Assembly (NCBI GenBank): GCA_027082925.1
Contig: JALWTD010000010.1
Coordinates: forward strand, 1 to 64,000
Direction of reading: 5' to 3'
Length of the DNA: 64,000 nucleotides
Origin: Flavobacteriaceae bacterium
GTDB lineage: Bacteria > Bacteroidota > Bacteroidia > Flavobacteriales > Flavobacteriaceae
Shown here: positions 4,793 through 50,856 of the stretch, piece after piece
How the letters are laid out: each line of letters starts with the position of its first letter
How positions within the stretch are numbered: the first letter of the stretch is position 1
Notes under the pieces: model-generated
The model's input: the letters and a program-made list of their open reading frames with translations, nothing else
What the model was told of the DNA's origin: nothing
Databases searched by the model: none
Made by a program: the position numbers and the translations under genes

Positions 4793-5263
4793 ATGTCAAA
4801 TATCAAAACATTTAAAAAGGGCGATAGAACTAAACTTTCAACTAATTTTTCTGCAAATGAGTTTGATTGTAAATGTGATCACTGTACAGAAACCTTGATT
4901 GATCTAGATCATGTAGTTAAATTACAACAACTTAGAGAAGATCTTAATGCTTCTATACGTATTAATTCTGGATATAGATGTCCAGCCCATAATGCTGCAA
5001 TCGGTGGAGCTAAAAACTCACAGCACAAACTTGGTACTGCTACTGATATTGTTGTTTCAGGTCTAACTCCAGATGAAGTAGCTGATGCTTGTGAGCACTT
5101 TAATGGACTTGGTAGATATAATACATTTACTCACGTTGATTCGCGAAAATCTAATAAAGCACGCTGGGATAATAGGACAATTAAAGAATTGCTTCCAAAT
5201 GGTCCAACTGAGGAAGATATAAGCATTACATTAGAGGATTTAGAAAGAGATCTGGGTCTTTAA
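4793..5263 (+). CDS. Endolysin, peptidase M15 (D-Ala-D-Ala carboxypeptidase family)
   Basis: INSGYRCPAHNAAIGGAKNSQHKLGTATDIVV...FTHVDSR. Confidence 0.85.
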   Translation: MSNIKTFKKGDRTKLSTNFSANEFDCKCDHCTETLIDLDHVVKLQQLREDLNASIRINSGYRCPAHNAAIGGAKNSQHKLGTATDIVVSGLTPDEVADACEHFNGLGRYNTFTHVDSRKSNKARWDNRTIKELLPNGPTEEDISITLEDLERDLGL

Positions 5264-32713: not shown

Positions 32714-32728
32714 TATAATATTAATATG
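32714..32728 (+). promoter_or_regulatory. Promoter TATAAT-N6-ATG; leaderless HNH start
   Basis: cagTATAATattaatATGggtcg. Confidence 0.6.
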
Positions 32729-33412
32729 GGTCGTTTAAAGAAAATTCCAAAAAGAGTGTATAACTTTATAGATTATGATGATTGGATTGAGAAAGAAGGC
32801 GGTAGAAGACTTTATAAGGCTTCATGTAAAGAGTGTGGTTCTGATAGAGGATATAAGCGCCCTAATAAGTTTATGCAAACTTGTAAAAAATGCTCTAATG
32901 CTAAAAATAGACTTAAAATAACTAAAAAACATAGAGAAGAACATTCTAAAAGAATGATAAATAGAATTCCATGGAATAAAGGACAAACAAAAGAAACCAA
33001 TGATAGTTTAATTAAAATATCAAAAGCCATGTCTAAAAGAGAGGTAAAATTAGAAACTAGAATAAAATCATCATGCACTCAAAGAGGTATTCAGTTTAAC
33101 GAATTTGATGATTTTACGAATAACAAAAATGATAAAGAAAGATTAAAATTTAAAGGCTATAGACTTAATCACGAGTGTCTTCAAAAAGCTAATTTTACTT
33201 GTGATATATCTGGTCAAAAAGGAATAAAATTAGTCGCTCATCATTTAAATAGTTGGAATTTATTTCCAGAGCAAAGATTTGATTTAAATAATTTAGTTTG
33301 TATGTCAGAAGAATTGCATAAAAAGTTTCATTCACTGTACGGTTATGGTAATAATACTAAAGATCAGTATAATGAGTTTAAAGATAAATGGAGAAAAAAT
33401 GGGAATATTTGA
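32726..33412 (+). CDS. HNH homing endonuclease
   Basis: CKECGSDRGY, KLVAHHLNSWNLFPEQRFDLNNLVCMSEELHKKFHSLYG. Confidence 0.88.
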   Translation: MGRLKKIPKRVYNFIDYDDWIEKEGGRRLYKASCKECGSDRGYKRPNKFMQTCKKCSNAKNRLKITKKHREEHSKRMINRIPWNKGQTKETNDSLIKISKAMSKREVKLETRIKSSCTQRGIQFNEFDDFTNNKNDKERLKFKGYRLNHECLQKANFTCDISGQKGIKLVAHHLNSWNLFPEQRFDLNNLVCMSEELHKKFHSLYGYGNNTKDQYNEFKDKWRKNGNI

Positions 33413-35424: not shown

Positions 35425-36237
35425 ATGACATGGGTATTATTAGAAGGAATCGACCGTTCAGGAAAATCGACTATAGCCAATCTTTATAAAGAAAAAGGTT
35501 ATGAAATTATTCACATGGACGCTCCTAATAAAAAATATTATGAACCTGGATATTCTGGACCATCTTATCTTGAAGAGATTGTAGAAATGTATAGTGTTTA
35601 TAGTGGCAAAGACGTAGTATTTGACCGTTCACCTTATGGTGAATGTATTTGGTCAGAAATATTTAATAGACAGGCCTTATTAAATAGTGAAGATTTTGAA
35701 TATCTTCAAAAAATAGAATACAATAATAATACAATAAGGTATTTAATGTTTGATGAAGATGTAGAAGCACATTGGCAAAGATGCATAGACAATAAAGAAC
35801 CAATAAATAGATTACAGTTTATACAGACAATGAGGTTATATGATGAGCTCGCAATTAAATACAACTTTGAAAAAAAACAACTTCGGGACTTTGACATCAA
35901 ATCAGAAGAAAGACATAAAGATAAAATCTCTTTTGATAGAGATACTAATAGTGTTGGGGATATACGATCGAATACAAGGACCGATGATATTTCCATGGTC
36001 AAAAATTACACTCTCGAACAAAGACTTGAACGGGCAAATGCTATCAGAAGTCTTCTTAAATCACCGCTTGTTAAAAAAAAGGGAGAAGTCTTTAGGGAAT
36101 TAGAGCAAAGTATAAAATTATTTTTAGAACAAGAATTAGAAAGTATATTTTCAAAACCAAAAGAAAATGATTTTACACAAGATGAGGTGCAGATATTAAA
36201 AATTTATGCTCAGCGCATAAAGGAAAAAATGGGATAA
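35425..36237 (+). CDS. Thymidylate/nucleoside monophosphate kinase-like protein with C-terminal extension
   Basis: VLLEGIDRSGKSTIANLY, VFDRSPYGECIW, then about 100 aa of unrelated helical extension. Confidence 0.7.
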   Translation: MTWVLLEGIDRSGKSTIANLYKEKGYEIIHMDAPNKKYYEPGYSGPSYLEEIVEMYSVYSGKDVVFDRSPYGECIWSEIFNRQALLNSEDFEYLQKIEYNNNTIRYLMFDEDVEAHWQRCIDNKEPINRLQFIQTMRLYDELAIKYNFEKKQLRDFDIKSEERHKDKISFDRDTNSVGDIRSNTRTDDISMVKNYTLEQRLERANAIRSLLKSPLVKKKGEVFRELEQSIKLFLEQELESIFSKPKENDFTQDEVQILKIYAQRIKEKMG

Positions 36238-36243
36238 TGTGCG

Positions 36244-36462
36244 GTGGAAAAATTAGTAATTAATTTTCTAAAAAATATTAATTTAAAGCGCAATAAAAAA
36301 CGATGGCAAAATGTAACAAAGTGGAATATACCAATTCGCGGTATTATGGAACATAAATTAATATATACTGGTGAAGCAATTGAAACTATAGACACTATCA
36401 TATATAATGATTTACGTAAAATATTAAAGAAATTAAACATCATGGAGGAAAAACTGAAATGA
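36244..36462 (+). CDS. Hypothetical protein
   Basis: 72-aa ORF overlapping next start. Confidence 0.55.
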   Translation: MEKLVINFLKNINLKRNKKRWQNVTKWNIPIRGIMEHKLIYTGEAIETIDTIIYNDLRKILKKLNIMEEKLK

Positions 36463-37034
36463 TCAAAATTTGTATTTTTTGTTTAAAGAAATATAATGCA
36501 AAACAAATTAATAGTAGATTTTGTTCTAAAAAGTGTAATAGAAAAAAATATGTTAAAGATAATATAGAAAAAATAAAAATAATAGATCAAACTAGTTATT
36601 TAAAAAATAGAAATAAAAGAATTTTAAAATCATCTACTTATTATATTAACAATAAAAGTAAGGTTAAGAAGTATAAAAAAGAGTACAATAAAATAAATAA
36701 AGAAAAAATAAAATATCAACAAAAATGTTGGAATAATAAAAACAGTGAATCTAATGACTATAAGGCTAAAAACGCTGCTCAAACAGCTAAATATAGAGCT
36801 CAAAAGTTAAAGGCTACACCTAAATGGTTAACTGAAAATCATTTTAAGGAAATTAGGGAGACATATAATGATTGTCAAGATTTACAATGGCTTTCAGAAG
36901 AAAGATTAGAAGTTGATCATATAATACCATTACAAGGAAAGACGGTAAGTGGACTACATGTTCCTTGGAATTTACAGATTTTATTAAGAAGTGTTAATAT
37001 AAGAAAAAGTAACAACATCGTGGAGGAAAAATGA
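36459..37034 (+). CDS. HNH homing endonuclease
   Basis: [53 protein letters not shown]. Confidence 0.9.
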   Translation: MIKICIFCLKKYNAKQINSRFCSKKCNRKKYVKDNIEKIKIIDQTSYLKNRNKRILKSSTYYINNKSKVKKYKKEYNKINKEKIKYQQKCWNNKNSESNDYKAKNAAQTAKYRAQKLKATPKWLTENHFKEIRETYNDCQDLQWLSEERLEVDHIIPLQGKTVSGLHVPWNLQILLRSVNIRKSNNIVEEK

Positions 37035-37603
37035 AAGGAATGAAGCAGAATAAAGCACCGTCAACTAAAGATAGAATTAGAGAATTAGAAGTTGCTATGC
37101 AAAACACGCAAATGGCAATGCAAATGTCTCAAATGATGGTAAAACACCTTACAGATCAATTTCAAACATTTCAAAATGATTTAGGTAGCACGATGGGAAT
37201 GCTAAACGATTTTCAATATAGAACATTAGCCATGTTGGAATTAGGTAATTTTAAAACTGAAGACATTGATGCTAAAGCTGAAGAGTTTAAATTAAAAGAT
37301 TTTAATAAAGCTTCTGATAAAGAGGATGAAATTAAAGGATATATTAACGATGATACTGGGATTGTTAATGAAGATAGCATTGTTATTCTTACCTCCTCAA
37401 CGCCAGATTTAGAGGAAGATCAGGGTATTTTCAGAAGCAAATTCCCTATGTCAGAATGCTTAACTCCTGAACTTAGAGAGAGCTTATTGGGCTCTAAAGT
37501 TGGTGACTCAATTTTTTCTGATCTTTCGGGTATTAATCATAAGATTACTATTTTAGGCATTAAAAAGGTAAAGGATAAGAAAGAAGAAGAGAAGGGAGAA
37601 TAA
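37031..37603 (+). CDS. Coiled-coil protein with GreA/GreB C-terminal-like domain
   Basis: N-terminal coiled coil; C-terminal LTPELRESLLGSKVGDSIFSDLSGINHKITILGIKKV. Confidence 0.5.
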   Translation: MKGMKQNKAPSTKDRIRELEVAMQNTQMAMQMSQMMVKHLTDQFQTFQNDLGSTMGMLNDFQYRTLAMLELGNFKTEDIDAKAEEFKLKDFNKASDKEDEIKGYINDDTGIVNEDSIVILTSSTPDLEEDQGIFRSKFPMSECLTPELRESLLGSKVGDSIFSDLSGINHKITILGIKKVKDKKEEEKGE

Positions 37604-38151
37604 TGACAGTAGTTGTAAATATGTTAGGTGGTAGTGGATTAGGTAAGTCAACTACTGCCGCAGGTTTATATCATCAAATGAAACTTGATGGTAAAAATGT
37701 AGAATTAGTAAGAGAATATGTAAAAAATTGGGCTTGGGATGGTAAAAAAATTGGTCAATATGATCAAATTTATATCTTTGGCAAGCAAGCAAGATCAGAA
37801 TATATGTTATATAATAAAGTTGATTATATAATAACTGACTCACCTATTATTCTTTCTCCAGTCTATGAAAAATTTTATAACAATGGTGAATCAATGATTG
37901 AAGAAGCATCCATAAAATTTTTAGAAAAAGCAAAAAAGAATGGTGTTAAACATATAAATTTTTTACTTGATCGAAAAAAACCATTTAATCCGGAAGGCAG
38001 ATATGAAACTGAGGAGCAGGCTAAAACTGTAGATGTTAAAGTAAGTGAATTCTTAGCTGATCATGGTTTAACATATGAAAAAGTAGATTGTGTTGATGAA
38101 GAAAGAATCAAATTTATGATGGATTTTTTAAATGAAATGCAAAAAATGTAA
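37603..38151 (+). CDS. P-loop ATPase/kinase (NadR/AAA-like)
   Basis: VVNMLGGSGLGKSTTAAGLYHQMK, YIITDSPIILSPVY. Confidence 0.7.
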   Translation: MTVVVNMLGGSGLGKSTTAAGLYHQMKLDGKNVELVREYVKNWAWDGKKIGQYDQIYIFGKQARSEYMLYNKVDYIITDSPIILSPVYEKFYNNGESMIEEASIKFLEKAKKNGVKHINFLLDRKKPFNPEGRYETEEQAKTVDVKVSEFLADHGLTYEKVDCVDEERIKFMMDFLNEMQKM

Positions 38152-38773
38152 TATAAATAATATAGAGCATAGATATTTGTGTTTATGCTCTAATTGTTAC
38201 AGGGAGAAAAGAAAAAATGATTGGAAAATTAATGAGCAAAAAAGAATAGAAAAAGACAAAGATAGAATAAAAAAAAAGAAAATTTATAATAAAAAATACT
38301 ATGAAGCTAATAAAACTTTAGTAAATAAGAAATGTGTTGATTGTGGACAATCTGCTTTAAAAGGATCTCGCTATAGTCAGTGTCGTTTATGTTCTAATAA
38401 AAGAATGGCTAAAAATAAAGTTATTTATCAAATAAATAGAAAGAAAACTCATCTTCCAACTAAAATCAGAAACAAACTATCCTCAAGACTAAAAGATTTT
38501 TTAAAAACTCACAATAAAGATAAGAGTAAATCTATAGTTGATTTTTTAGGTTGTACTATAGAGGAGTTTATAGTTTATATAGAGAGTAAATTTCAACCAG
38601 GAATGACTTGGGATAATTATGGCTTAAAGGGTTGGCATTTTGATCACATTAAACCAGTTTCTGCTTTTGATCCGAATGACGAAAATGATCTTAATAAAAT
38701 GTCTCATTATACTAACTTACAGCCACTGTGGGCTAAAGATAACCTAAGTAAAGGAAATAGGTATGAAGAATAA
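38132..38773 (+). CDS. HNH homing endonuclease
   Basis: [45 protein letters not shown]...[19 protein letters not shown]. Confidence 0.92.
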   Translation: MKCKKCNINNIEHRYLCLCSNCYREKRKNDWKINEQKRIEKDKDRIKKKKIYNKKYYEANKTLVNKKCVDCGQSALKGSRYSQCRLCSNKRMAKNKVIYQINRKKTHLPTKIRNKLSSRLKDFLKTHNKDKSKSIVDFLGCTIEEFIVYIESKFQPGMTWDNYGLKGWHFDHIKPVSAFDPNDENDLNKMSHYTNLQPLWAKDNLSKGNRYEE

Positions 38774-39104
38774 AATGGATCCAAGATGCCCAAGAAAATT
38801 AGATGAATTACCGTGTGAATATTGTCCACTTGCTGTACTCAGATTGAAATCTCTTCGCAATAATGAAAAAGAATTAACAGAAGAAGAAGAGGCTTTATTA
38901 CCGGGATGCGTGTGGGCAGTAAATCATCAAATGTCTAATTATTGCTTTTTTAATTACACTGCTAATTATCTAAATAAGCCGCCATCTGATAAAGAAATAG
39001 CTCACATGAATAATGTGTCAATAGAAGTGGTTAAAGAAACGGCAAAACAAGCACTAGAAAAAATAAAAGAATTTAAACTTATTAAGCATTTAGGCAACAA
39101 ATGA
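38763..39104 (+). CDS. Cys-rich HTH protein, sigma-70 region 4-like
   Basis: CEYCPL; PPSDKEIAHMNNVSIEVVKETAKQALEKIKE. Confidence 0.5.
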   Translation: MKNKMDPRCPRKLDELPCEYCPLAVLRLKSLRNNEKELTEEEEALLPGCVWAVNHQMSNYCFFNYTANYLNKPPSDKEIAHMNNVSIEVVKETAKQALEKIKEFKLIKHLGNK

Positions 39105-39328
39105 GTGAGTATAAAGGTTTTACAGATTGGAAAAAACATGATAATGTTATAGAAGGTCATATTTTTAAGCAAAAAATAATTAAAACTTTAATTAAACTAA
39201 ATCTACATCCAGAAGATCCTTTGGCTATTTTTTTAGAAGAAATGAGGCGAAGCGTTGGAATTCCAGATAAAATATTCATAAGTCCTAAACAGTCCAAAGC
39301 GCTCCAAAAAATTAAAAAAGATAAGTAA
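39101..39328 (+). CDS. Hypothetical protein
   Basis: 75-aa ORF. Confidence 0.65.
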   Translation: MSEYKGFTDWKKHDNVIEGHIFKQKIIKTLIKLNLHPEDPLAIFLEEMRRSVGIPDKIFISPKQSKALQKIKKDK

Positions 39329-39329
39329 T

Positions 39330-40421
39330 ATGAATAAAATAATCACTAAAAAAGTTAAATATCTTGGAAAAGAGATTTCTGTTGACGATTTAAAAGAAAA
39401 TTCTAATATAAAAATAACTGTAGAGTGTAAACACGGCCAACGTGAGGTGCGTTGGTGTCGTAGATTTCAAATGTGTCGCAAGTGTGTATCTGAAGCAGGA
39501 TTATATAATACTTCTAAAAAAGGTAGAAAAATTACTTGGGGAGACAAAATATCTAAAGCTAAGAAAGGTATTAAGTTTACAAAAAAACATAAAAAGGCGT
39601 TATTGGAATCTAGAATTAAAAAAATTTGTAATAAAAAAGGAATAAAAAGACAGGATTTTGACGGATTTCCAACTAAAGGTGAGCAATTTAAGGTACGACA
39701 ATATATTATGAGTATTTTAAATAAAAGTGCAATAAAAATAAGTACAAAAGAGCAAGATAAATTATGTATTAAAAATTTAAACTATACATCAGAAGAACTT
39801 AAAAAACACTTAGAAAACCAATTTCAAGAAGGAATGACTTGGGATAATTATGGAGAATGGCATATAGATCATATTAAACCAGAAAGTTGGTTTTCATATA
39901 AAGAAATAGGGGATAGTGAATTTAAAAAGTGTTGGGCATTAAGTAATTTGCAGCCGCTGTGGGCATGGCAAAATATAGATAAAAGTAATAAATATGAAGG
40001 TAAATATAAAATTAGAAAAATCTATATGTTAGGTGGACAATTTGGAGTAGGCAAAACGACTGCATGTTTAAGATTGTCAAATAAATTTAATATTATTAGT
40101 TACGATAAGTGTAATATTAAGAATTTAGATAGTATTATAGCTAATAATTATTATAAAGACAAGCCAATACTACTAGATGTTCCTACAAACATTTCAACAT
40201 TATACAATAGATATGTAAATAAAAAATATGAAGTTCACTTAGTGATGTTAATAGAATCACCAAATATAGTTAAACAGAGACTATTAAGTAGAGATGGAAA
40301 AATTAACGATGATGCTATTAATAAAAGGTATATTAGAATGTTATCGTTAAGAGATAATTATTCTAATTTTAGTGGCACTTTTAATGAAGTCATAGAGTAT
40401 TTTTCCAACCTAAAAATCTAG
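39330..40421 (+). CDS. HNH endonuclease fused to C-terminal P-loop NTPase/kinase-like domain
   Basis: [38 protein letters not shown]-loop: KIYMLGGQFGVGKTTACLRLSNKFNIISYDK. Confidence 0.88.
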   Translation: MNKIITKKVKYLGKEISVDDLKENSNIKITVECKHGQREVRWCRRFQMCRKCVSEAGLYNTSKKGRKITWGDKISKAKKGIKFTKKHKKALLESRIKKICNKKGIKRQDFDGFPTKGEQFKVRQYIMSILNKSAIKISTKEQDKLCIKNLNYTSEELKKHLENQFQEGMTWDNYGEWHIDHIKPESWFSYKEIGDSEFKKCWALSNLQPLWAWQNIDKSNKYEGKYKIRKIYMLGGQFGVGKTTACLRLSNKFNIISYDKCNIKNLDSIIANNYYKDKPILLDVPTNISTLYNRYVNKKYEVHLVMLIESPNIVKQRLLSRDGKINDDAINKRYIRMLSLRDNYSNFSGTFNEVIEYFSNLKI

Positions 40422-40446
40422 TATAATAGTTATAGGAGTTTATTCT

Positions 40447-42093
40447 ATGGCTAAAAAAGATAAAAGATTATGGTTAGATATGTGTGCAGGTTCAGAATTA
40501 ATGGACACACAAGGCGAAACTCTTAGTGTTGAAGGTGCAGATATAAGTGAACTTAGAAGACTGAATGATAATCATGGAAAAGGTTTTTTTAATAATTTAG
40601 GCATAATAACTGAATCAAAAAAAATATTTAAACGCGAAGATTGTGAAAATGAACGTCAAGAGTATTATTGGAATAAAATAAAAGCACCTTATATATATGC
40701 TAAAGGTTATTTACATAATGACGAAGACCATCCTAATGCTAGAGCTGCTGCTGCAATACTAAGAAATATCCATAGAGAAGATTGCCCTTTAAAGCTTAAA
40801 AGTAGTGTTGAAGGTGGAGTTGTAGCCAGAGGAATCAAGGATCCTTCACGCTTAGTTAGAACCAAAATACATTCAGTCGCTCTTACTTTTACTCCAGCAA
40901 ATAATGCTACGTTAGTAGAACCGCTTAATTTAGATAAATCTAACTCAAATTGGGAAACAGATAGGCAACTTATTAAGTCAGTTATGCATCTCGCAGAAAC
41001 AAATGTGCCATCTTTTAGGCACATAGAGCGTCACGCTTCCGCTAATACTATTCACGATAATATATTGAAAATACAAGAATTAGCTAAGTCTTTAGGGATT
41101 GATATTGAGATAAAAGAATCAAACCCTGATAATATAATGAAAAATGCAGTTCTTCATAAGGTGTCAAATAATATAAGTAAAATTAACCATTTAGTTAAAG
41201 CTATTCGTAATATGCAACAAGTTATGAGTCCCGCACCTAAAACAAGTCCAGGCAAAGTGGCGATGGCAGCAGAAGAGCAAAAAGCAACTAAATTAAAGGC
41301 TGCAGATGAATTTCAACAAAAAATTGGTAAATTAAAAAATGATCCAACTACTCCAACTAAACCCAAAGATTTAACTCAAAATCCGTCAGGGACAATGAAA
41401 GTCCAAAATGCCTCAAAGGTAAAAGTAACTAATACATTGAAATCTCACGCTAGTAAAGCAATGAAAGATCCAGAACACTTAAATAATATACAAAAACAAC
41501 TAATAGAGCGAGGAATGCACCCTGATAAGGTTAACGCCATTATTAATAAAATTAAAGAACATTTAGTTAAATCTATAGATGAAAATAAAATGGAAAAAGG
41601 TGAATTAGGTCAAACTGCTAAAAATTTACTTTTGGCTGGAACAATGGCTATTGGCATTAATCAATCTGCTCGCAAAGTCCCCAAAAATCAACTAAAAACT
41701 GAAATTAAAAGAGAAATAGCATCTAAACCTAAAAAGCCTAAAAGTACAAGATTTGAAGGTGAAAATGCTGATTATTTTAACGCTATAGATGATAAACAAA
41801 AAATTAGAGCCAATAAGGTTAAAGCAAAATATTCAAAAATAAAAAGTAAACTAAAAAAGGCTTTAACCGCCGGATATGGTGGGGCAGGCGCTCCTAGTGC
41901 AATGACTGGAGGCAGTGTCATTCAGTCTGAAAGTTTAGATGATGGTCGAGCCAAGAAGACGGAAACAACAGATGGATTTTCATATATTTCTTGCGATACC
42001 TGTGGTCATGAGCAAGTTTATATGAAGCATCAAGTAAAGTGTCGCAAATGTAGAAAAAATTTTTCACTTGATAAACTTCAAAATCACTTCTAA
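40447..42093 (+). CDS. Prohead protease with C-terminal scaffold-like region and zinc ribbon
   Basis: KLKSSVEGGVVARGIKDPSRLVRTKIHSVALTFTPANNATL; C-term CDTCGHEQVYMKHQVKCRKCRK. Confidence 0.7.
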   Translation: MAKKDKRLWLDMCAGSELMDTQGETLSVEGADISELRRLNDNHGKGFFNNLGIITESKKIFKREDCENERQEYYWNKIKAPYIYAKGYLHNDEDHPNARAAAAILRNIHREDCPLKLKSSVEGGVVARGIKDPSRLVRTKIHSVALTFTPANNATLVEPLNLDKSNSNWETDRQLIKSVMHLAETNVPSFRHIERHASANTIHDNILKIQELAKSLGIDIEIKESNPDNIMKNAVLHKVSNNISKINHLVKAIRNMQQVMSPAPKTSPGKVAMAAEEQKATKLKAADEFQQKIGKLKNDPTTPTKPKDLTQNPSGTMKVQNASKVKVTNTLKSHASKAMKDPEHLNNIQKQLIERGMHPDKVNAIINKIKEHLVKSIDENKMEKGELGQTAKNLLLAGTMAIGINQSARKVPKNQLKTEIKREIASKPKKPKSTRFEGENADYFNAIDDKQKIRANKVKAKYSKIKSKLKKALTAGYGGAGAPSAMTGGSVIQSESLDDGRAKKTETTDGFSYISCDTCGHEQVYMKHQVKCRKCRKNFSLDKLQNHF

Positions 42094-42101
42094 AATCTAA
42101 G

Positions 42102-42116
42102 TATAATAGAAGCATG
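42102..42116 (+). promoter_or_regulatory. Promoter TATAAT-N6-ATG; leaderless GIY-YIG start
   Basis: ctaagTATAATagaagcATGaggc. Confidence 0.6.
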
Positions 42117-42743
42117 AGGCATACAATATCTAAAGTGTATGTATATAAGGTTACTTCTCCATCTAATAAGTGCTATATTGGAATAACCAATAACTGGTAC
42201 AAAAGATGGAGTGATCATATACATAACAGTAAAACTCCAGATTATATATTTCATAAAGCAATCAATAAATACTCTCCTGAAAATATGCTATGGGAAATAA
42301 TAGATACGGCCGAAACTTATGAAAAAGCTTATAACCTTGAAAGATATTATATAAATGCAAACGACTCCTATAAGAATGGATATAATTCTACAATAGGGGG
42401 TGATGGTGTAGCAAAGTGGACTAAGGATAAATTGAAAAAGGAGGCGCTTAAATATAAAACTAAAATTGAATTTAAGCAAAATAATCAGTCAGCGTATGTA
42501 ATATTAAATAGTTATAAGAAAATTGATTTATTATTTTACAAAGAATGTACATTACATTTTATAAAAAAGAATAAACCTTATAAATCCAAGTGGACAATTG
42601 ATGTCATTAAAGATGCAGTATCTAATTATAAAACATTAAAGGGTATACGTATTAACAATATGCCGTTATATGCTGCATTAGGTAGACTAAGAAGGTCAAA
42701 ATATGATTTATATCGTGATATTGTTTTAAGCCTAAGCATCTGA
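42114..42743 (+). CDS. GIY-YIG homing endonuclease
   Basis: VYKVTSPSNKCYIGITNNWYKRWSDHIHN, EKAYNLERYYINANDSYKNGYNSTIGGDG. Confidence 0.92.
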   Translation: MRHTISKVYVYKVTSPSNKCYIGITNNWYKRWSDHIHNSKTPDYIFHKAINKYSPENMLWEIIDTAETYEKAYNLERYYINANDSYKNGYNSTIGGDGVAKWTKDKLKKEALKYKTKIEFKQNNQSAYVILNSYKKIDLLFYKECTLHFIKKNKPYKSKWTIDVIKDAVSNYKTLKGIRINNMPLYAALGRLRRSKYDLYRDIVLSLSI

Positions 42744-42799
42744 TATAGTATAGGCTGAAATATGAAATAACGTTATTATAAACCGTAAGGAGAAAACAA

Positions 42800-43141
42800 A
42801 TGGCGAACGAAGTACAAATTTTGGATAAAATCCAACGTAATTGTGAGCAAGCTGGTATTGCAGTAGCAAGAACAAGCGCAACTTCATTAACTGCTGCTGG
42901 CATGGTAATCACATACAGTGCTGCTGTTATTGATGCACCAATGGGTGGAGTCGATGATTCAATTAATCCTTTTCTAGGAATTGGTGTTGCTAATCCAGGA
43001 AAACTAAATCTAAGCGCAATTCCCGCAACTCTTGATGAATTTAGAGTTTTAAGAATTATGTCAGGACATGCAAATACTATTGTGGTTGCTGGTCTTGGTG
43101 AATTAGAAGGTCATGTTGATCTTTTAGGTATGGGAGAATAA
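42800..43141 (+). CDS. Putative head decoration/structural protein
   Basis: 113-aa ORF between protease and scaffold genes with strong RBS. Confidence 0.5.
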   Translation: MANEVQILDKIQRNCEQAGIAVARTSATSLTAAGMVITYSAAVIDAPMGGVDDSINPFLGIGVANPGKLNLSAIPATLDEFRVLRIMSGHANTIVVAGLGELEGHVDLLGMGE

Positions 43142-43172
43142 TCAATTAGAGTTTTAATAAGGAGAAAACACT

Positions 43173-43901
43173 ATGGAATTCACTAATGAAGAAATGGTAA
43201 AATCTCTTACATCTCTAATCGATGAAACCCTCGAAGAGATTGAAGAGATTAAAAAGTCTAAGTTCGCCGCTTCTGAGATTAAACTTGGTGAAGACGAAGG
43301 TCTTGCTGGTAGAAGTAAGAATGGTAGTCTAGAAGCTAAGAAAAAAGAAGATGAAGACGACGACGAAGATGATGAAGATATGGATAAAGGTGAAGGTAAA
43401 AACTGCGAAGCTGATCCAGATGCTGGTAAATTTGCTCAAGCACCTAGCGTAGCTAAAGGTGAAAATGAAAAAGCTGATCCAGATGCTGGTAAATTTGCTC
43501 AAGCACCTAGCGTAGCTAAAAAAGAAGAAAAAGACGAGGATGAAGAAGAAGAGAAAGAAAAAATGAAAGAAATGAAAAAATCTCTTGATGAATCTGAAAC
43601 TTTAATGAAATCTTATGTTGATACAAAAATGGAATATTTAGAGGAAAAGCTTTCTAAAATGGCTGCTGCAATCGAAGCTCTTGCTGATGCACCTGTTGAA
43701 AGAAAAAGCGTTCCTGCAGGAATTACTGCATTACATAAGTCTATTCAGGAAGTTGAGCCAATGGCTAAATCTGATATTGCTGAAAAGCTATTTGAACTTA
43801 AAAAGTCTGGCGAAGAAGTTGATTCAACTGACATCTTTAGAGTAGAAACTGGCAGTATTACTGCCGCTAACGAAATTGCAACCAAGTACGGACTAAGATA
43901 A
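43173..43901 (+). CDS. Acidic coiled-coil protein, putative scaffold/head core
   Basis: Position before the capsid gene, acidic repeats and coiled coil. Confidence 0.55.
   Translation: MEFTNEEMVKSLTSLIDETLEEIEEIKKSKFAASEIKLGEDEGLAGRSKNGSLEAKKKEDEDDDEDDEDMDKGEGKNCEADPDAGKFAQAPSVAKGENEKADPDAGKFAQAPSVAKKEEKDEDEEEEKEKMKEMKKSLDESETLMKSYVDTKMEYLEEKLSKMAAAIEALADAPVERKSVPAGITALHKSIQEVEPMAKSDIAEKLFELKKSGEEVDSTDIFRVETGSITAANEIATKYGLR
43410..43457 (+). repeat. 48-bp tandem direct repeat copy 1 (copy 2 43473-43520)
   Basis: gctgatccagatgctggtaaatttgctcaagcacctagcgtagctaaa exact twice (ADPDAGKFAQAPSVAK). Confidence 0.95.
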
Positions 43902-43918
43902 TCTTAAGGAGATAAAAA

Positions 43919-45364
43919 ATGAACGTAAACGAAACTGTTGACCAAATCAATTCGGGGCTTGAGCAGGGGATTGTTTCTCCTCAAGAAGTTGAAGCTCTTA
44001 ACAAAGCCATTACTGCTGGATACGGTGGTGCTGGTAAACCTACTGACCTAACTTATGGTGGTGTTCTTCAAGCTGAAAGTCTTGAGTCTACTCTTAAGAG
44101 TATTACTTTTGATATGAAAAATTTGAAGTTTTGGCCTGCTATTAGTGTGGACAAAGCATACAATCTATTCGAACAATATAATCGTTTAATCGGTTATGGT
44201 TCTGATTCTTCACCATACATTGGAGAAGGTGGAGCACCGAGAGAAGAAGATTCTACATATATCAGAGACGGTCAAAGGATCGTATTCTTTGGTACTCGTA
44301 GAAAAGTATCACATCAAATGACACTTGTTAGAACTACTGTTGGTGATATCGTAGCTCAACAAGCTAAAGAAGGTACAATGCATCTTCTTAAAAACGTAGA
44401 GCGTGAAATGTATTGGGCACATGCTCACTTTACTAATGCTGCTACGGGAGCACAAAATGGAGCACAATCTGATCTTCCTGCTAACTCAATTGCCATGAAT
44501 GGACTTTTACAGCAATTATTAAAAGGTGATGATGATAGCCAACAAAAATCAAAAGAATTTGAAGGATATGGAGAGGTTAGATCAATTGCTAAAGATCTTG
44601 ATGGTGCTGTTCTTTCTCAAGATGACCTAGAAGATCTTGCAGTTATTGCTTTGGAAAACTTCGGTGCTCCAAGTGAACTACATATTGAGCCTCTAGCTCT
44701 TAGTTCTTTTGTTAAGCAATTTTACCCACAATTTAGAAGTGCTCCTGGTATGGGATCACAATCTGTTGGTTATGATGTAAATAAGATGGTTACATCTGCT
44801 GGTAACATTGAATTTAAACCAAATCTTTTCTTACGACCTCGTGGACGCGCAAGAGCAATTGGAATTAAAAATGCACCAGTTGCGCCAGTAATTGCAGCTG
44901 TTGGTGTTGCTACTAATCCAGTTGGTTCTTTAGTTGCTGGTGACAGCTATGATTACACAGTTACAGCTGTTAATGATCATGGTGAAGGTTCAGTTTCTAA
45001 TCAAATTACTGCTGTTGTTCAAGCTAATGGTTCTGCTCAAATTTCAATTGGTGCAGTTGCTGGAGCTAAGTATTACAAAGTTTACCGTAAGGTAACTGGC
45101 GCTGCTGCTGGTTCTGGTCAATTCATTGGGAATTATAGAGCTTCTGGTGATATCACTGATGCTGGTGCTAAAGGTGCTGGTCTTGGTGAAGCATTCTTGC
45201 TTGACATGAGCTCTGAGGTTATGAGATTTAAACAGTTAAGTCCACTTTCAAAAATAAATTTTGCAGTTGTGACTACTGCACTCGAATTTGCTGTTGTTCT
45301 GTACGGCGCACTGTTCGTTTATGCACCGAGATTTAACTGCTTATTTAAAAATTTAGGTAAATAA
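43919..45364 (+). CDS. Major capsid protein with Ig/FN3-like insertion
   Basis: 481 aa, strong RBS, followed by terminator; Ig-like AGDSYDYTVTAVNDHGEGSVSNQITAVV...AKYYKVYRKVTG. Confidence 0.75.
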   Translation: MNVNETVDQINSGLEQGIVSPQEVEALNKAITAGYGGAGKPTDLTYGGVLQAESLESTLKSITFDMKNLKFWPAISVDKAYNLFEQYNRLIGYGSDSSPYIGEGGAPREEDSTYIRDGQRIVFFGTRRKVSHQMTLVRTTVGDIVAQQAKEGTMHLLKNVEREMYWAHAHFTNAATGAQNGAQSDLPANSIAMNGLLQQLLKGDDDSQQKSKEFEGYGEVRSIAKDLDGAVLSQDDLEDLAVIALENFGAPSELHIEPLALSSFVKQFYPQFRSAPGMGSQSVGYDVNKMVTSAGNIEFKPNLFLRPRGRARAIGIKNAPVAPVIAAVGVATNPVGSLVAGDSYDYTVTAVNDHGEGSVSNQITAVVQANGSAQISIGAVAGAKYYKVYRKVTGAAAGSGQFIGNYRASGDITDAGAKGAGLGEAFLLDMSSEVMRFKQLSPLSKINFAVVTTALEFAVVLYGALFVYAPRFNCLFKNLGK

Positions 45365-45393
45365 TTGATTTTACACAATTTTTAATACAAATT

Positions 45394-45418
45394 AGCCCAA
45401 CTTTTGTTGGGCTTTTTT
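45394..45418 (+). terminator. Rho-independent terminator after major capsid gene
   Basis: agcccaac-tttt-gttgggct followed by ttttt. Confidence 0.9.
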
Positions 45419-45483
45419 GTGTCTTTTTCTTAAACTAATATTATTTCTTTTTATTGGTACAATATACTAAAAGGACACCGTAT

Positions 45484-46656
45484 ATGTTTAATAGAAAAAG
45501 AACAAAAGAAATATTTGGATATGATTTAGATTTATCTAAAAAAAGAAGAACAAAAGCAGAAATTGAAACTTCAGGTAGTTCACGAAGAAGAAATTTAAAA
45601 GTAATAGACAATTGTCCTAAATGTAATCGTGAACGACAAATTACTCTACATGCATCTAGAAAGAATAGACTGTGTTCAAAATGCTTTCACAATACGCCTA
45701 AAATGAAAGACGTTAAAAAGAATCAATCAAAATTTGTATCAGAAAAAACTAAAAAAAATATGAGCAACAATCATTGGTCTAAAAAAGGAAGTGAACCGTG
45801 GAATAAAGGTAGAACTCATATTTATTCAGAAGAAACTTTAGACAAAATAAGAAAAGCTGCAATTAAGCAATTTAAAGAAGAAACAAGTGAAGATAAAAAA
45901 GAAAGAATAATTATGACATCATGTTCACTTAGAGGTATTAATAGAGAAGACTTTAAAGGATTTGTAACGCCTATGAATACAAAAATTAGACAATCAAAAA
46001 AATCCAAAGAATGGAAACAAAAATGTTTAAAAAGAGATAATTTTTCATGTAGAGTAAGTGGAAGTAAAGAAAATTTACAAGTACATCATTTAGAGTCATT
46101 TGCATCAAACCCAGACTTAAGGTTTGATGTAGACAATGGCATTACTTTAAATAAAGAAATCCACTCTCAATTTCATTCCATGTATGGAAAAAAGGATAAT
46201 ACTAAGAAACAATTTGAAGATTTTTTGCATATATTGGCAAACCCTATAATTAATAAACCAACTATTTATATTGTTTCTGGTATAGCCGGAGCAGGAAAGT
46301 CTTGGGTATGCAATCAACTTAAAGACATTGATAAGTTCTATTATGTGTCATATGATGAAAATAGAAAAAAAACTCACTTAGATTTGTTAAGGTCAACTCC
46401 TAAAGACAAGATTGCATTATATGATCTTAATATAAAAACTTCTACATTTATACGTAGACATTCTCATGAATTTAACATACACTTTGTAACCATTTTAGGT
46501 GATTTTCTACAAGTTAAACAACAACTTAAAGATCGTGGCGGCAAAATAACTAAAGGAACTTACAAACGCTGGAAGGTTATGCAAAAACGTGCTAAACAAT
46601 ATGGAGAATTTTCTGGCTCATCTCTAGAAGTTTTAAATTACTTAAAAAACCTATAA
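45484..46656 (+). CDS. HNH endonuclease fused to C-terminal P-loop NTPase/kinase-like domain
   Basis: HNH: LQVHHLESFASNPDLRFDVDNGITLNKEIHSQFHSMYG; P-loop: TIYIVSGIAGAGKSWVCNQLKDIDKFYYVSYDE; ATG at 45484 preferred over TTG 45454. Confidence 0.88.
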   Translation: MFNRKRTKEIFGYDLDLSKKRRTKAEIETSGSSRRRNLKVIDNCPKCNRERQITLHASRKNRLCSKCFHNTPKMKDVKKNQSKFVSEKTKKNMSNNHWSKKGSEPWNKGRTHIYSEETLDKIRKAAIKQFKEETSEDKKERIIMTSCSLRGINREDFKGFVTPMNTKIRQSKKSKEWKQKCLKRDNFSCRVSGSKENLQVHHLESFASNPDLRFDVDNGITLNKEIHSQFHSMYGKKDNTKKQFEDFLHILANPIINKPTIYIVSGIAGAGKSWVCNQLKDIDKFYYVSYDENRKKTHLDLLRSTPKDKIALYDLNIKTSTFIRRHSHEFNIHFVTILGDFLQVKQQLKDRGGKITKGTYKRWKVMQKRAKQYGEFSGSSLEVLNYLKNL

Positions 46657-46680
46657 AACAATATAAAATGTTTAAATTAG

Positions 46681-46695
46681 TATAATCTATATATG
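46681..46695 (+). promoter_or_regulatory. Promoter TATAAT-N6-ATG; predicted leaderless start
   Basis: ttagTATAATctatatATGaagaa. Confidence 0.55.
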
Positions 46696-46884
46696 AAGAA
46701 AATACAATATTGGTCATATATTAATAGTGGTGGCAGAATGTACGCTACAGAAGAGGCAATTAAGGCTTATAGAGAACAATCTTTAGAAACTTATAATAAA
46801 TTTTTAAGAGGTGATTTTGAATTCGCAGATGTTCTTCCTAATGAATTATTAATTGAATTAGAATTACTTCGGAGAAATGAATGA
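46693..46884 (+). CDS. Small hypothetical protein
   Basis: 63-aa ORF. Confidence 0.6.
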   Translation: MKKIQYWSYINSGGRMYATEEAIKAYREQSLETYNKFLRGDFEFADVLPNELLIELELLRRNE

Positions 46885-47336
46885 ATTATCTAAAAGATTT
46901 TTTAAAAAAATTAACTAATGATAATCATTATTATGCAGAGATGATAGGTAATGTTGCAGAAATATATATTGATACAGAATCAAAACCAGTAGTTATGTTA
47001 GAATTTGATGGTGAAATATATCATTTGAATTTTAGATGCGATTTAACGTCTAGTATAGTAGCTAAAATTATGTATGATATGACTATTATAAATAAGAATA
47101 TTGTTGTTGGATTAGATTTTTACTCATCTCCAGACACTGGTTTAATATATGGAGAACAAGCTTTAGCACTATATTTTTCATCTGTAATTCAAGCTTTTGA
47201 AAATGCACAAACAAAACAAGAAGAAGCACTATTAGGTGCAATGTACGTAGTAGAATATCCTATAGATACAGCATATGGAAATAAACATGACAAAAAAAAT
47301 AAAATGCAGAGATTGTGGGGAACCGACCTGGAATAG
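46881..47336 (+). CDS. Hypothetical protein
   Basis: 151-aa ORF. Confidence 0.65.
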   Translation: MNYLKDFLKKLTNDNHYYAEMIGNVAEIYIDTESKPVVMLEFDGEIYHLNFRCDLTSSIVAKIMYDMTIINKNIVVGLDFYSSPDTGLIYGEQALALYFSSVIQAFENAQTKQEEALLGAMYVVEYPIDTAYGNKHDKKNKMQRLWGTDLE

Positions 47337-47793
47337 AACAGAGCGTTGTGGGCCCTGTAAAGGAGTATGGAGAAGGAATATGGCGGAAACTAAAGAAGAA
47401 CTTAAAGAGGTTCTTAAGCAACATAAAAAAATAAAACAAAAAAATAAAGATAATGAACAAAAAATATATAAATCTTTAATCAACGCTGTACATAAAAAAC
47501 AAACATGTATAAAGTGTAAAGAGCAAATTACAGTAACAATTAATGGTATGTGTAATACCTGTTTATCTAAGGAAGATGAATTAGATGAAATACAGTACCC
47601 AAAACACTATAATGCGGGAAAAATACAACCAATTGATGTTATTGAATCATGGCAACTTGATTTTAGATTAGCTAATGCTGTAAAATATATTGCTAGACAT
47701 AAACATAAAGGTAGTGCAAAAAAAGATTTAGAAAAAGCAGTATGGTACATAGAAAGATACATAAGCAAAGAGTTAAGTGAGAATATAAAATAA
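47287..47793 (+). CDS. Zinc-ribbon plus DUF3310-like protein
   Basis: CRDCGEPTWNRTERCGPC; C-term YPKHYNAGKIQPIDVIESWQLDFRLANAVKYIARHKHKGSAKKDLEKAVWYIERYI. Confidence 0.75.
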   Translation: MTKKIKCRDCGEPTWNRTERCGPCKGVWRRNMAETKEELKEVLKQHKKIKQKNKDNEQKIYKSLINAVHKKQTCIKCKEQITVTINGMCNTCLSKEDELDEIQYPKHYNAGKIQPIDVIESWQLDFRLANAVKYIARHKHKGSAKKDLEKAVWYIERYISKELSENIK

Positions 47794-48347
47794 TGAGTAA
47801 TTTATTTGCAGTAAATCAATCTATAAACAATTGGACAATAATAGGTAAAGCTAAGCCTAGAAGAACTCCGCAAGGACAGATTAAGCATTATTGGTTATGT
47901 AAATGTATATGCGGTAAATGTAAAGAAGTTTATGCTGGATCTCTTAAATCTAATAAATCTAAAGGGTGCGGATGTAACAGGCTAAATAAAAAAGAAAAAG
48001 GTGAAGCTTCTTTACATAATATATTTTTATGTTATAAAAGTAGAGCTAAAAGAAAAAATCTTGAATTTACTTTAAACAAAGATGAATTTACTACATTAAT
48101 AAAGCAACCATGCTTTTATTGTGATAAAGTAAATTCAAATTATATGATTGCAGGACGAAGAAATGGTGGCTTTTATTATAATGGAATTGATAGAGTTGAC
48201 AATACTAAGGGATACACCAAAGAGAACTGCAACCCTTGCTGTAAGTACTGCAATAAGGCTAAATTAGATCAAACTCATGATGAGTTTTTAAATATGATTA
48301 GTATTATATATAACAAGCACATAAAAAATAAAAAGGATGTGGAGTGA
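47793..48347 (+). CDS. HNH endonuclease-like protein
   Basis: CKCICGKCKEVYAGSLKSNKSKGCGC, CFYCDKVNSN, GIDRVDNTKGYTKENCNPCCKYCNKAK. Confidence 0.75.
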   Translation: MSNLFAVNQSINNWTIIGKAKPRRTPQGQIKHYWLCKCICGKCKEVYAGSLKSNKSKGCGCNRLNKKEKGEASLHNIFLCYKSRAKRKNLEFTLNKDEFTTLIKQPCFYCDKVNSNYMIAGRRNGGFYYNGIDRVDNTKGYTKENCNPCCKYCNKAKLDQTHDEFLNMISIIYNKHIKNKKDVE

Positions 48348-49240
48348 TGGCTAAGACAAAAAAGACAATAAAAAAAGCAAAAAAGAAAACAACTAAGAAA
48401 AAAAGTACTAAAAAATACAAAAGATTTTCGCCTCCAAAAAGTGATATAGGTAAACCTAAAGTTTTGGTTTATGATATAGAAACAGCGCCAGTTTTAGCTT
48501 CAGTTTGGGGATTATTTGATCAAAACGTTGGCTTAAATATGGTTAAATCTGATTGGCATATTATGTCTTGGTCTGCTAAGTGGTTAGATGCTCCAGAAAA
48601 TGAAGTTATGTATATGGATCAACGAAATAAAAAGAATATAGAAGACGACAAAGAACTCCTTAAAGAAATTTGGTCATTATTAGATGAAGCTGATATGGTT
48701 ATTACCCAAAACGGCAAAAAGTTTGATCAAAAAAAATTAAACGCTAGATTCATTCTAAATGGAATGCAGCCGCCAAGCTCATACAAACACATAGATACGC
48801 TAAGAATAGCTAAAAAACACTTTGCCTTTACTAGCAATAAATTGGCATTTATGACAGATAAATTGTGCGTTAAATACAAGAAACTAGATCACGGTAAATT
48901 CCCAGGATTTGAACTTTGGAAAGAATGTATGGCTGGAAATCTAGAAGCTTGGCAAGAAATGGAAGATTATAATAGGCATGACGTTTTATCTCTTGAAGAA
49001 CTATATCATAAGCTAATTCCATGGGATAATACATTTAATTTTAATGTGTATCATGATGAAAATAAAGTTATTTGTAGATGCGGAAGTGAATCATTTTCAA
49101 AAAATGGCTTTTACTACACGACGGCTAGCAAATTTCAAAAATATAAATGTAAAAGCTGCGGTCATGAAACCAGAAGTAAAGTTAATCTACTCTCAAAAGA
49201 TAAGCGTAAATCGCTAAGAATGGACACGCCAAAAACCTAG
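48344..49240 (+). CDS. RNase H-like 3'-5' exonuclease with C-terminal zinc ribbon
   Basis: VLVYDIETAPV, VITQNGKKFDQKKLNARF, NRHDVLSLEELY, CRCGSESF...CKSCGHE. Confidence 0.8.
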   Translation: MMAKTKKTIKKAKKKTTKKKSTKKYKRFSPPKSDIGKPKVLVYDIETAPVLASVWGLFDQNVGLNMVKSDWHIMSWSAKWLDAPENEVMYMDQRNKKNIEDDKELLKEIWSLLDEADMVITQNGKKFDQKKLNARFILNGMQPPSSYKHIDTLRIAKKHFAFTSNKLAFMTDKLCVKYKKLDHGKFPGFELWKECMAGNLEAWQEMEDYNRHDVLSLEELYHKLIPWDNTFNFNVYHDENKVICRCGSESFSKNGFYYTTASKFQKYKCKSCGHETRSKVNLLSKDKRKSLRMDTPKT

Positions 49241-49331
49241 CAAAAGTGCTCTAGCGAAAGTTGGGGCATATTTTATTATGAAAAACGTAATAAGATTCTA
49301 ACAGACAGGCTTATTTAACGGTTAAATCTGG

Positions 49332-49346
49332 TACAATAACTCTATA
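49332..49346 (+). promoter_or_regulatory. Promoter TGGTACAAT-N6-ATA
   Basis: ctggTACAATaactctATAtag. Confidence 0.5.
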
Positions 49347-49372
49347 TAGACAAAATTATATGGAGTTATTGT

Positions 49373-49699
49373 ATGTCACAAAAAAATAAAATCCGCAAAC
49401 AACTTACAAAAAACATAGTAGATGTAGCCCAGGCGCTAGTGTCACTAAATGTTCCTGGTAAAGTCATTACAAATGCCATTAACACTGCCACAGAAGTTGG
49501 AGAAGGTAATATTCTTAGAATACAGACCGCTGGAGATATGTATGTCGCATTTGGAGACGAAGTAACAATGCCTGCAACATCTGCAACTACAAATATTGCA
49601 GTTAAATTAGTTGGAGCTGGAGTTCACTATGTTATATGCCAAAGTAAATACGTAAGAACAGATGTTGCAGCAACAAGAGTTGAGCTTTTAGAGCTTTAA
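49373..49699 (+). CDS. Putative virion/decoration protein
   Basis: 108-aa ORF within head gene cluster. Confidence 0.5.
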   Translation: MSQKNKIRKQLTKNIVDVAQALVSLNVPGKVITNAINTATEVGEGNILRIQTAGDMYVAFGDEVTMPATSATTNIAVKLVGAGVHYVICQSKYVRTDVAATRVELLEL

Positions 49700-49722
49700 A
49701 ACTAATATTAAAAGAGCAATAT

Positions 49723-50856
49723 ATGAAATTAAATAGTTTTAAAGAATTATTATTAAAAAAATCTGAAGACAATAAAAATTTACAAATTCTTATTAAATAT
49801 ATGAGAGATGACTACTTGGTAGGCCATGTAATTGAGTCATTAGAGAAAATGGCCGCTAGTTATAGTAAGAAAAATCCGAACCATGCCATTATGCACTTTG
49901 GCACTAATATAGATAAGGGTACAGAAGGCGACATGTTTCATGATGCATTATCTCATCATGCGTCTAATTACAAATCAGCTTTAAATGCAGGAAATACGAG
50001 AGTTGCCGATCAACATATGGCACAAATATTTAAAATGATGCATATGGCAGATAAGTTAACTAAAGATGGATACAATGATCATTCGGGCGGAAAACTTAAA
50101 ATAGAAGCAATTGATCCTAAACCATGGGAACGATCGTATTTTAAAGATAAAAAAGATAATGGAAAATTTAAAACAGATACTAAAGGGTGGGGTAGAGGAC
50201 CGACGAAAGAAGGTTATAGTTTTCTCAGAGGTGCACCCCATGAATCGTATAAAGGCGAAATAGCAACACATGGTCACAATAAGGCTTACCCATTAAACGA
50301 AATTAAAGTTAATGGTAAATATTTACATATAGATGATTCTAATGATAAAACTAATAATGCATATGAACCACACCCATTTGATTCTCATCCAATAATGAGT
50401 CATTATAAGCGTTCACCTAAAGCCCATGACTCTATTAGTCACGATAAGTATTTAAAAGAATATGATGATTTTCATGCCGATGGCGGTGGAATGGATAAAT
50501 ATTTTGATCTTATTGAGTCAAGAGATCCAGTTGAACATGAAGCTAGAGGATCTAAAAAATCAGATCCTGTACATAAAGATATTGAGGGGCTTGACTTAAG
50601 CGATACTACAAAACGAGATATAGAAAATGCTAAAATTGAAGGATTTGAAAAACCTATTTCTGATAGTATAGAAACAAAACAAGAAAAAAAATTATCAGAA
50701 AAGCCACCTACCCTTGAAGAAGTTAAAGCTAAAATAGCAGCAATAAGAAATTCTAAAAAACCAAACTCTATACGCAGAGAAGACAAATCAGCAAAAAAAT
50801 CACCCACACTTGAAGAAGTTAAGGCTAAATTGGCAGCAATAAGAGGCAAAAAGTAA
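49723..50856 (+). CDS. Structural-region protein with C-terminal repeat PTLEEVKAK(I/L)AAIR
   Basis: Two copies of PTLEEVKAKxAAIR at the C-terminus. Confidence 0.65.
   Translation: MKLNSFKELLLKKSEDNKNLQILIKYMRDDYLVGHVIESLEKMAASYSKKNPNHAIMHFGTNIDKGTEGDMFHDALSHHASNYKSALNAGNTRVADQHMAQIFKMMHMADKLTKDGYNDHSGGKLKIEAIDPKPWERSYFKDKKDNGKFKTDTKGWGRGPTKEGYSFLRGAPHESYKGEIATHGHNKAYPLNEIKVNGKYLHIDDSNDKTNNAYEPHPFDSHPIMSHYKRSPKAHDSISHDKYLKEYDDFHADGGGMDKYFDLIESRDPVEHEARGSKKSDPVHKDIEGLDLSDTTKRDIENAKIEGFEKPISDSIETKQEKKLSEKPPTLEEVKAKIAAIRNSKKPNSIRREDKSAKKSPTLEEVKAKLAAIRGKK

Follow-up and report, generated by a model that had tools for sequence, protein, structure and literature searches.

The stretch of DNA analysed here, referred to as the window, comprises 64,000 nucleotides of a 73,242-bp contig in a 2.47-Mb bacterial assembly; the contig looks like a partial SPO1-like phage genome, whose relatives reach 177 kb. 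Its forward strand carries a major capsid gene (43919..45364; phrog_752, E 3e-59), the product of which is ~30% identical to the major head protein of SPO1. Behind the capsid gene, at a position designated site 1, lies an open reading frame of 390 aa, P0001 (45484..46656, forward strand), which both the reading of the ORF and its predicted fold present as a fusion of an HNH nuclease with a P-loop kinase; the fusion that an initial annotation had placed downstream of the capsid gene is real. The frame opens with an ATG at 45484 (an in-frame TTG lies upstream at 45454), closes with a stop codon at 46654-46656 and has a ribosome-binding-like AAAGGA upstream. The 119 bp between the capsid stop codon and the P0001 start contain a terminator-like hairpin with a T run (45400..45425, forward strand, read directly from the sequence), and empty sites also have a hairpin behind the capsid gene. 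On its right, site 1 is bounded by a gene (46881..47336, forward strand) whose homologue, by locus comparison, directly follows the capsid gene in relatives with an empty site.

P0001 consists, in this order, of a zinc ribbon (C44, C47, C64, C67; 45610..45690), a NUMOD3-like putative DNA-binding stretch (residues 85-123; 45736..45855), an HNH_2 core (H201, H202, N218, H227, H231; 46000..46240) and a P-loop kinase domain assigned by sequence comparison (Walker A G266..K272; D291, D314, R351; 46258..46653), all on the forward strand. The cysteines of the ribbon and the named residues of the HNH core are invariant in seven homologues, and the NUMOD3-like stretch scores below the Pfam cut-off in P0001 and above it in the homologue L104. 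HNH_2 (PF13391) matches residues 189-232 with 21.4 bits, barely above the cut-off of 21, and is flanked in the remainder of the protein by weak AAA and weak NUMOD3 matches. AlphaFold2 modelled the HNH core and the kinase of the full-length protein confidently and the NUMOD region joined to them poorly; the kinase modelled alone was also confident (pLDDT 89.7). In the model, strands 198-202 and 219-223 and helix 224-234 make up a beta-beta-alpha core, and P0001 has the catalytic residues and the predicted core architecture of an HNH endonuclease.

Another nuclease-kinase fusion, P0002 (363 aa; 39330..40421, forward strand; phrog_1035, phrog_28061), carries an EndoVII-like HNH and lies at site 2, which is empty in the relative L121. 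Its kinase domain (40014..40418, forward strand), delimited by alignment with that of P0001, is identical to the latter at 45 of 133 positions (34% over 133 aa, E 2e-16). With the first ~22 residues of the pair, including Walker A, removed, the alignment still gave 34% over 112 aa and 46 bits, twice the best of 300 shuffles (22 bits); the two proteins carry homologous kinase domains, as the initial annotation had proposed, and the homology continues past the Walker A motif. The HNH halves were correctly assigned to different subtypes, HNH_2 in P0001 and EndoVII-like in P0002, with no detectable similarity between the cores. However, a zinc-ribbon/NUMOD3 N-terminal region with the motif 'GIxREDFxGFxT' is common to both proteins (hhalign probability 92, E 7e-7), so the view of the two fusions as independent is too strong. 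From the likeness of the kinases and of the N-terminal regions, P0001 and P0002 share ancestry at both ends, and they differ in the catalytic nuclease core. PADLOC returned no defence match for these nuclease-kinase proteins, and Rfam gave no match at the gathering score, and no group I intron, in positions 36000-50000 of the window. An intron-encoded homing endonuclease was rejected on the lack of an Rfam intron and on the nature of both inserts, which are intergenic ORFs.

At least eight more homing-type nuclease genes (EndoVII-like HNH, HNH_2, other HNH and GIY-YIG) lie between virion genes of the same phage (32131-32706, 32726-33412, 36459-37034, 38132-38773, 42114-42743, 47793-48347, 52967-53632 and 55097-55885). 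The gene at 38132-38773 is missing from the close relative L121/L232, and 68 bp (33345-33412) are common to the HNH_2 gene at 32726-33412 and the beginning of the portal gene ORF. A separate observation concerns a stretch of ~30 residues, TAGYGGAG..P....GG..Q.ESL, which is common to the head-maturation-protease-like protein (ORF 40447-42093, stretch at about 41850-42000) and the N-terminus of the capsid protein (about 43990-44090), is about 60% identical by tblastn and is perhaps a protease recognition or scaffold motif.

A capsid-anchored scan of IMG/VR yielded 80 loci. The kinase was present at site 1 in 21 of them, each time with a nuclease directly upstream (21/21). Site 1 was empty in L121, L127, L130, L131 and L135, and it held a nuclease without the kinase in L136, L179, L186 and L189-L192. 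These figures refer to loci and not to independent events, as near-copies are included (L093/L142, L194-L196) and some contigs end early. In L121, the capsid of which is 94% identical to that of the window, both site 1 and site 2 are empty; by sequence comparison, the genes of P0001 and P0002 are polymorphic for presence or absence at fixed sites in close relatives.

Occupied sites differ in the nuclease they hold. When the nuclease types of 20 phages were mapped on the trees, that of the kinase required 12 changes and that of the capsid 13, against shuffled means of 11.4 and 11.3, without clustering on either; with counts this close to the shuffled ones, the nuclease has reassorted freely. 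In L093 and L095, the capsids are 99% and the kinases 98% identical at the protein level, and the nuclease genes between them are entirely unrelated. In the two capsid genes, the first 280 codons have a synonymous divergence of 0.00, which grows to 0.24 and 0.41 in the last windows, with 0.15 in the kinase, whereas the empty pair L127/L131 has no rise toward the capsid end. The gradient in this one pair is consistent with what co-conversion around a homing site, a mechanism reviewed previously (PMC2988022), would leave. Synonymous divergence is also raised at the capsid 3' end between the window and the empty L121, where its reading is ambiguous. In L245, a complete HNH_2 gene stops where the kinase would begin and is followed, 72 bp on, by a GIY-YIG-kinase gene; a deletion in this stacked state would yield an HNH-kinase fusion.

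Scans of IMG/VR with the kinase gave about 30 further loci, and additional copies came to light in 36 records searched in full. Ahead of the kinase we found HNH_2 (P0001, L096, L098, L100, L104, L177, L185), EndoVII-like HNH (P0002, L004, L005, L108, L171, L198, L218, L219, L221, L253), GIY-YIG with NUMOD motifs (L085, L086, L091, L094, L103, L151, L183, L245) and PD-(D/E)XK with helix-turn-helix repeats (L003, L092, L093, L126, L137, L160). L095 has a 511-aa Vsr-like gene followed by the kinase as a separate ORF; the name Vsr-like was given from the motif 'YLDIDGLYYHSEKRK' read by eye, Pfam offering DUF7487 only. The order is reversed in L220, where the kinase precedes GIY-YIG and NUMOD, while in L217 the kinase is joined to NUMOD3 and a NUMOD1-like tail (the tail assigned by eye) and no nuclease domain was found; a MoxR-like ATPase gene adjoins both of these fusions. 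In L198 (5053-6423), an EndoVII-like HNH carries two kinase domains in tandem, of which the first lacks the Walker A lysine. At site 2, the nuclease is EndoVII-like in all five known copies, which group in a single region of the kinase tree.

A tblastn search of 50,697 phage records with the kinase domain returned only Walker A or weak partial matches, or none, and peptide patterns for the HNH half alone found nothing in IMG/VR. The genome-contig scans gave no kinase relative, nor did 99 additional genomes related to that of the host, which makes the family look borne by phages in this setting. Stand-alone kinases of ~135 aa occur in unrelated phages (L109-L116 and L118, around position 5000) and form a separate clade; a search of the annotated phage collection with one of these, L110, gave no match. 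We also noted, in the record of a related phage (L222, from G126), a protein that combines metallophosphatase, ligase and kinase and looks like the RNA-repair enzyme Pnkp, its first two domains named by eye.

The kinase could in principle be a resident phage gene to the 5' end of which incoming nucleases were fused by accident, with the fusion itself functionless. The neighbouring but separate ORFs of L095, where the covalent link is not kept, would fit such a history, as would the unfused kinases of the same superfamily in unrelated phages (L109-L118) and the weak correlation of kinase with capsid distances (Mantel r 0.33, 1/5000 permutations). However, the kinase at site 1 is never without a nuclease (21 of 21 loci), yet empty and nuclease-only sites are common; fusions are found at two other sites too and, in L220, in reverse order, and four nuclease families joined in frame are much to ask of chance. 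We consider an accidental fusion unlikely.

The catalytic positions of the kinase are nearly invariant among 31 fused copies: K14, D33 and R93 are present in 31/31 and D56 in 29/31, while R104 is found in 29 and replaced by K in the other two. In the hhalign register, K14, D33, D56 and R93 fall on K15, D35, D85 and R126 of T4 Pnk, and the fused kinases have, by alignment, equivalents of all four catalytic residues. The dN/dS of the kinase was 0.046 for the window and L003 (a value that rests on a high dS, 1.5), 0.065 for L093-L095 and 0.090 for L004-L005, as low as that of the capsid. As the protein and its catalytic residues persist against strongly diverged synonymous sites, selection acts on the kinase protein. 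These values also bear on the idea that the kinase is a mere downstream homology arm for recombination of the nuclease, or a folding or binding domain, with catalysis irrelevant. Recombination between the capsid 3' end and the kinase does happen, and the first of the tandem kinases of L198 has lost its Walker A lysine; against this, a dN/dS of 0.05-0.09 and catalytic residues kept between copies with far diverged synonymous sites speak for selection on the protein, and L217 retains the kinase though its nuclease is gone. A passive role of this kind seems improbable to us, somewhat more so than an accidental fusion. The kinase is likely an active P-loop phosphotransferase. The initial suggestion of a selected function, drawn from one kinase domain on two HNH types, holds and even understated the case, given four fused nuclease families and an unfused one, two domain orders, three genomic sites, and the purifying selection and near-invariant catalytic positions of the kinase.

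As to the type of kinase, hhalign against a set of four PNK sequences gave 97.9% over 93 columns, while a thymidylate-kinase-like control gave 16%; inclusion of the stand-alone kinases raised the former value to 98.5%. A three-sequence thymidylate-kinase-like set gave 10%. Against single sequences, the probability was 96% for a Pnkp-type kinase, 94% for T4 Pnk over 32 columns only, 90-93% for gluconokinase over 92 columns and 90% for adenylate kinase over the P-loop only. Searches among solved folds favour guanylate kinase (E 4e-5) and gluconokinase, and fold searches in PDB and BFVD gave nothing beyond generic P-loop kinases. The AAA_33 profile matches L217 with 30.1 bits (cut-off 27) and the window proteins below the cut-off, and the window proteins miss all cut-offs of the specific Pfam and NCBIfam kinase families. 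Zeta toxin (PF06414) was rejected at a best window score of 18.6 bits against a cut-off of 22.3. A PNK-like enzyme is our best single guess, the relation being modest.

SPO1 DNA contains hydroxymethyluracil, and the capsid of the window is SPO1-like, which brings up a kinase that modifies DNA bases in the manner of the 5-hydroxymethyl-dU DNA kinases, forming with the nuclease something close to a restriction-modification pair that guards its own allele. The tethering of the kinase to DNA-binding modules would suit this role, and the kinase of L108 has a weak match to HMUDK_HMUD1. However, the HMUDK profile (PF18748) was rejected as an assignment, as this match covers 40 lid residues at 11.9 bits, below the cut-off of 27, and occurs in one of 24 records; of the three alternatives we give base modification the least credence.

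Taken together, we propose that P0001 and P0002 are encoded by free-standing genes of the homing-endonuclease type and that their constant partner is an active PNK-type kinase, both activities being putative and read from sequence; we put the probability of this reading at about two in three. Under the proposed scheme, the genes are optional inserts that sit among the conserved virion genes of a phage resembling SPO1, as the comparison of relatives supports. The nuclease end, with its zinc ribbon and NUMOD3, would target DNA near the insert, which at site 1 is probably the capsid 3' end, and repair of the cut would copy the gene with its flanks; the copying step is supported by comparison, and cutting is the presumed driver of spread. 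Homing of P0001-type genes is well supported by comparison of sequences. Recombination in the flanks, that is, in the capsid 3' end and the kinase, would then swap the nucleases of site 1, with the stacked and unfused states as plausible intermediates, and in this way one kinase lineage would meet HNH_2, EndoVII-like, GIY-YIG, PD-(D/E)XK and Vsr-like nucleases.

The kinase of the proposed element would be an ATP-dependent phosphotransferase kept by selection. It stays linked to DNA-binding modules whether it comes first or last in the protein, and in one case no nuclease is present, from which we infer that its substrate is most likely nucleic acid: a 5'-OH end, which T4 Pnk phosphorylates, or a different group of DNA or RNA. 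This is the weakest step of the scheme. Such a kinase would help the element or its phage. HNH and GIY-YIG nucleases leave 5'-phosphates, so the cut that the element itself makes does not obviously call for simple end healing; the kinase could instead mend breaks made by the host, repair tRNA in the manner of T4 Pnk, or protect the allele. More tentatively, the kinase and not the nuclease could be the persistent core of a distinct class of phage selfish elements. Tethered to DNA, this phosphotransferase would recruit one unrelated nuclease after another for mobility and act on nucleic acid at the target, healing ends, phosphorylating bases or protecting its own allele, and would thereby benefit its phage or disable rivals. 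We hold this to be conceivable rather than probable.

Homing endonucleases have been treated as minimal selfish genes made of a nuclease and DNA-binding parts. In the present family, an enzyme of another class persists beside the nuclease, and in many phages five nuclease families have passed through a single site, which makes site 1 a clear case of a homing site at which the whole nuclease is replaced. Through the kinase partner, 'free-loaders or functionaries?' becomes a testable question, for which the natural empty, nuclease-only, stacked, unfused and nuclease-less alleles are ready controls.

A kinase-bearing homing element is apparently without earlier description: the open-access papers searched, weak evidence in themselves, yielded no homing endonuclease-kinase fusion, and a text search of PMC2988022 and PMC10448857 found no mention of a kinase. 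The role of the kinase will decide whether it counts as a separate class. With T4 Pnk and Pnkp, the fused kinase shares Walker A, the aspartates after strands 2 and 3 and the lid arginine, but it is ~130 aa long, without a 3'-phosphatase or ligase domain, and joined to putative homing nucleases. Nucleoside monophosphate kinases and gluconokinase provide its nearest solved folds; it is shorter than these, and the likeness in sequence lies mostly in the P-loop and lid. The stand-alone kinases L109-L118 have the same domain, aligned over the full length (hhalign 99.9%, E 1e-36), but no nuclease is attached to them and they form their clade with a support of 100/99. The free-standing homing endonuclease genes of phages (T4 seg and mob, those of ICP1 and other phages; PMC2988022, PMC10448857) are likewise optional nuclease genes beside essential virion genes, with NUMOD-type DNA-binding modules and empty alleles; flank divergence of the kind that co-conversion would leave, another of their features, is clear here in one pair (L093-L095). 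Domain swapping among homing endonucleases is known (PMC10448857). What sets the elements described here apart from these is a conserved P-loop kinase, at the C- or N-terminus, that persists as one nuclease family replaces another.
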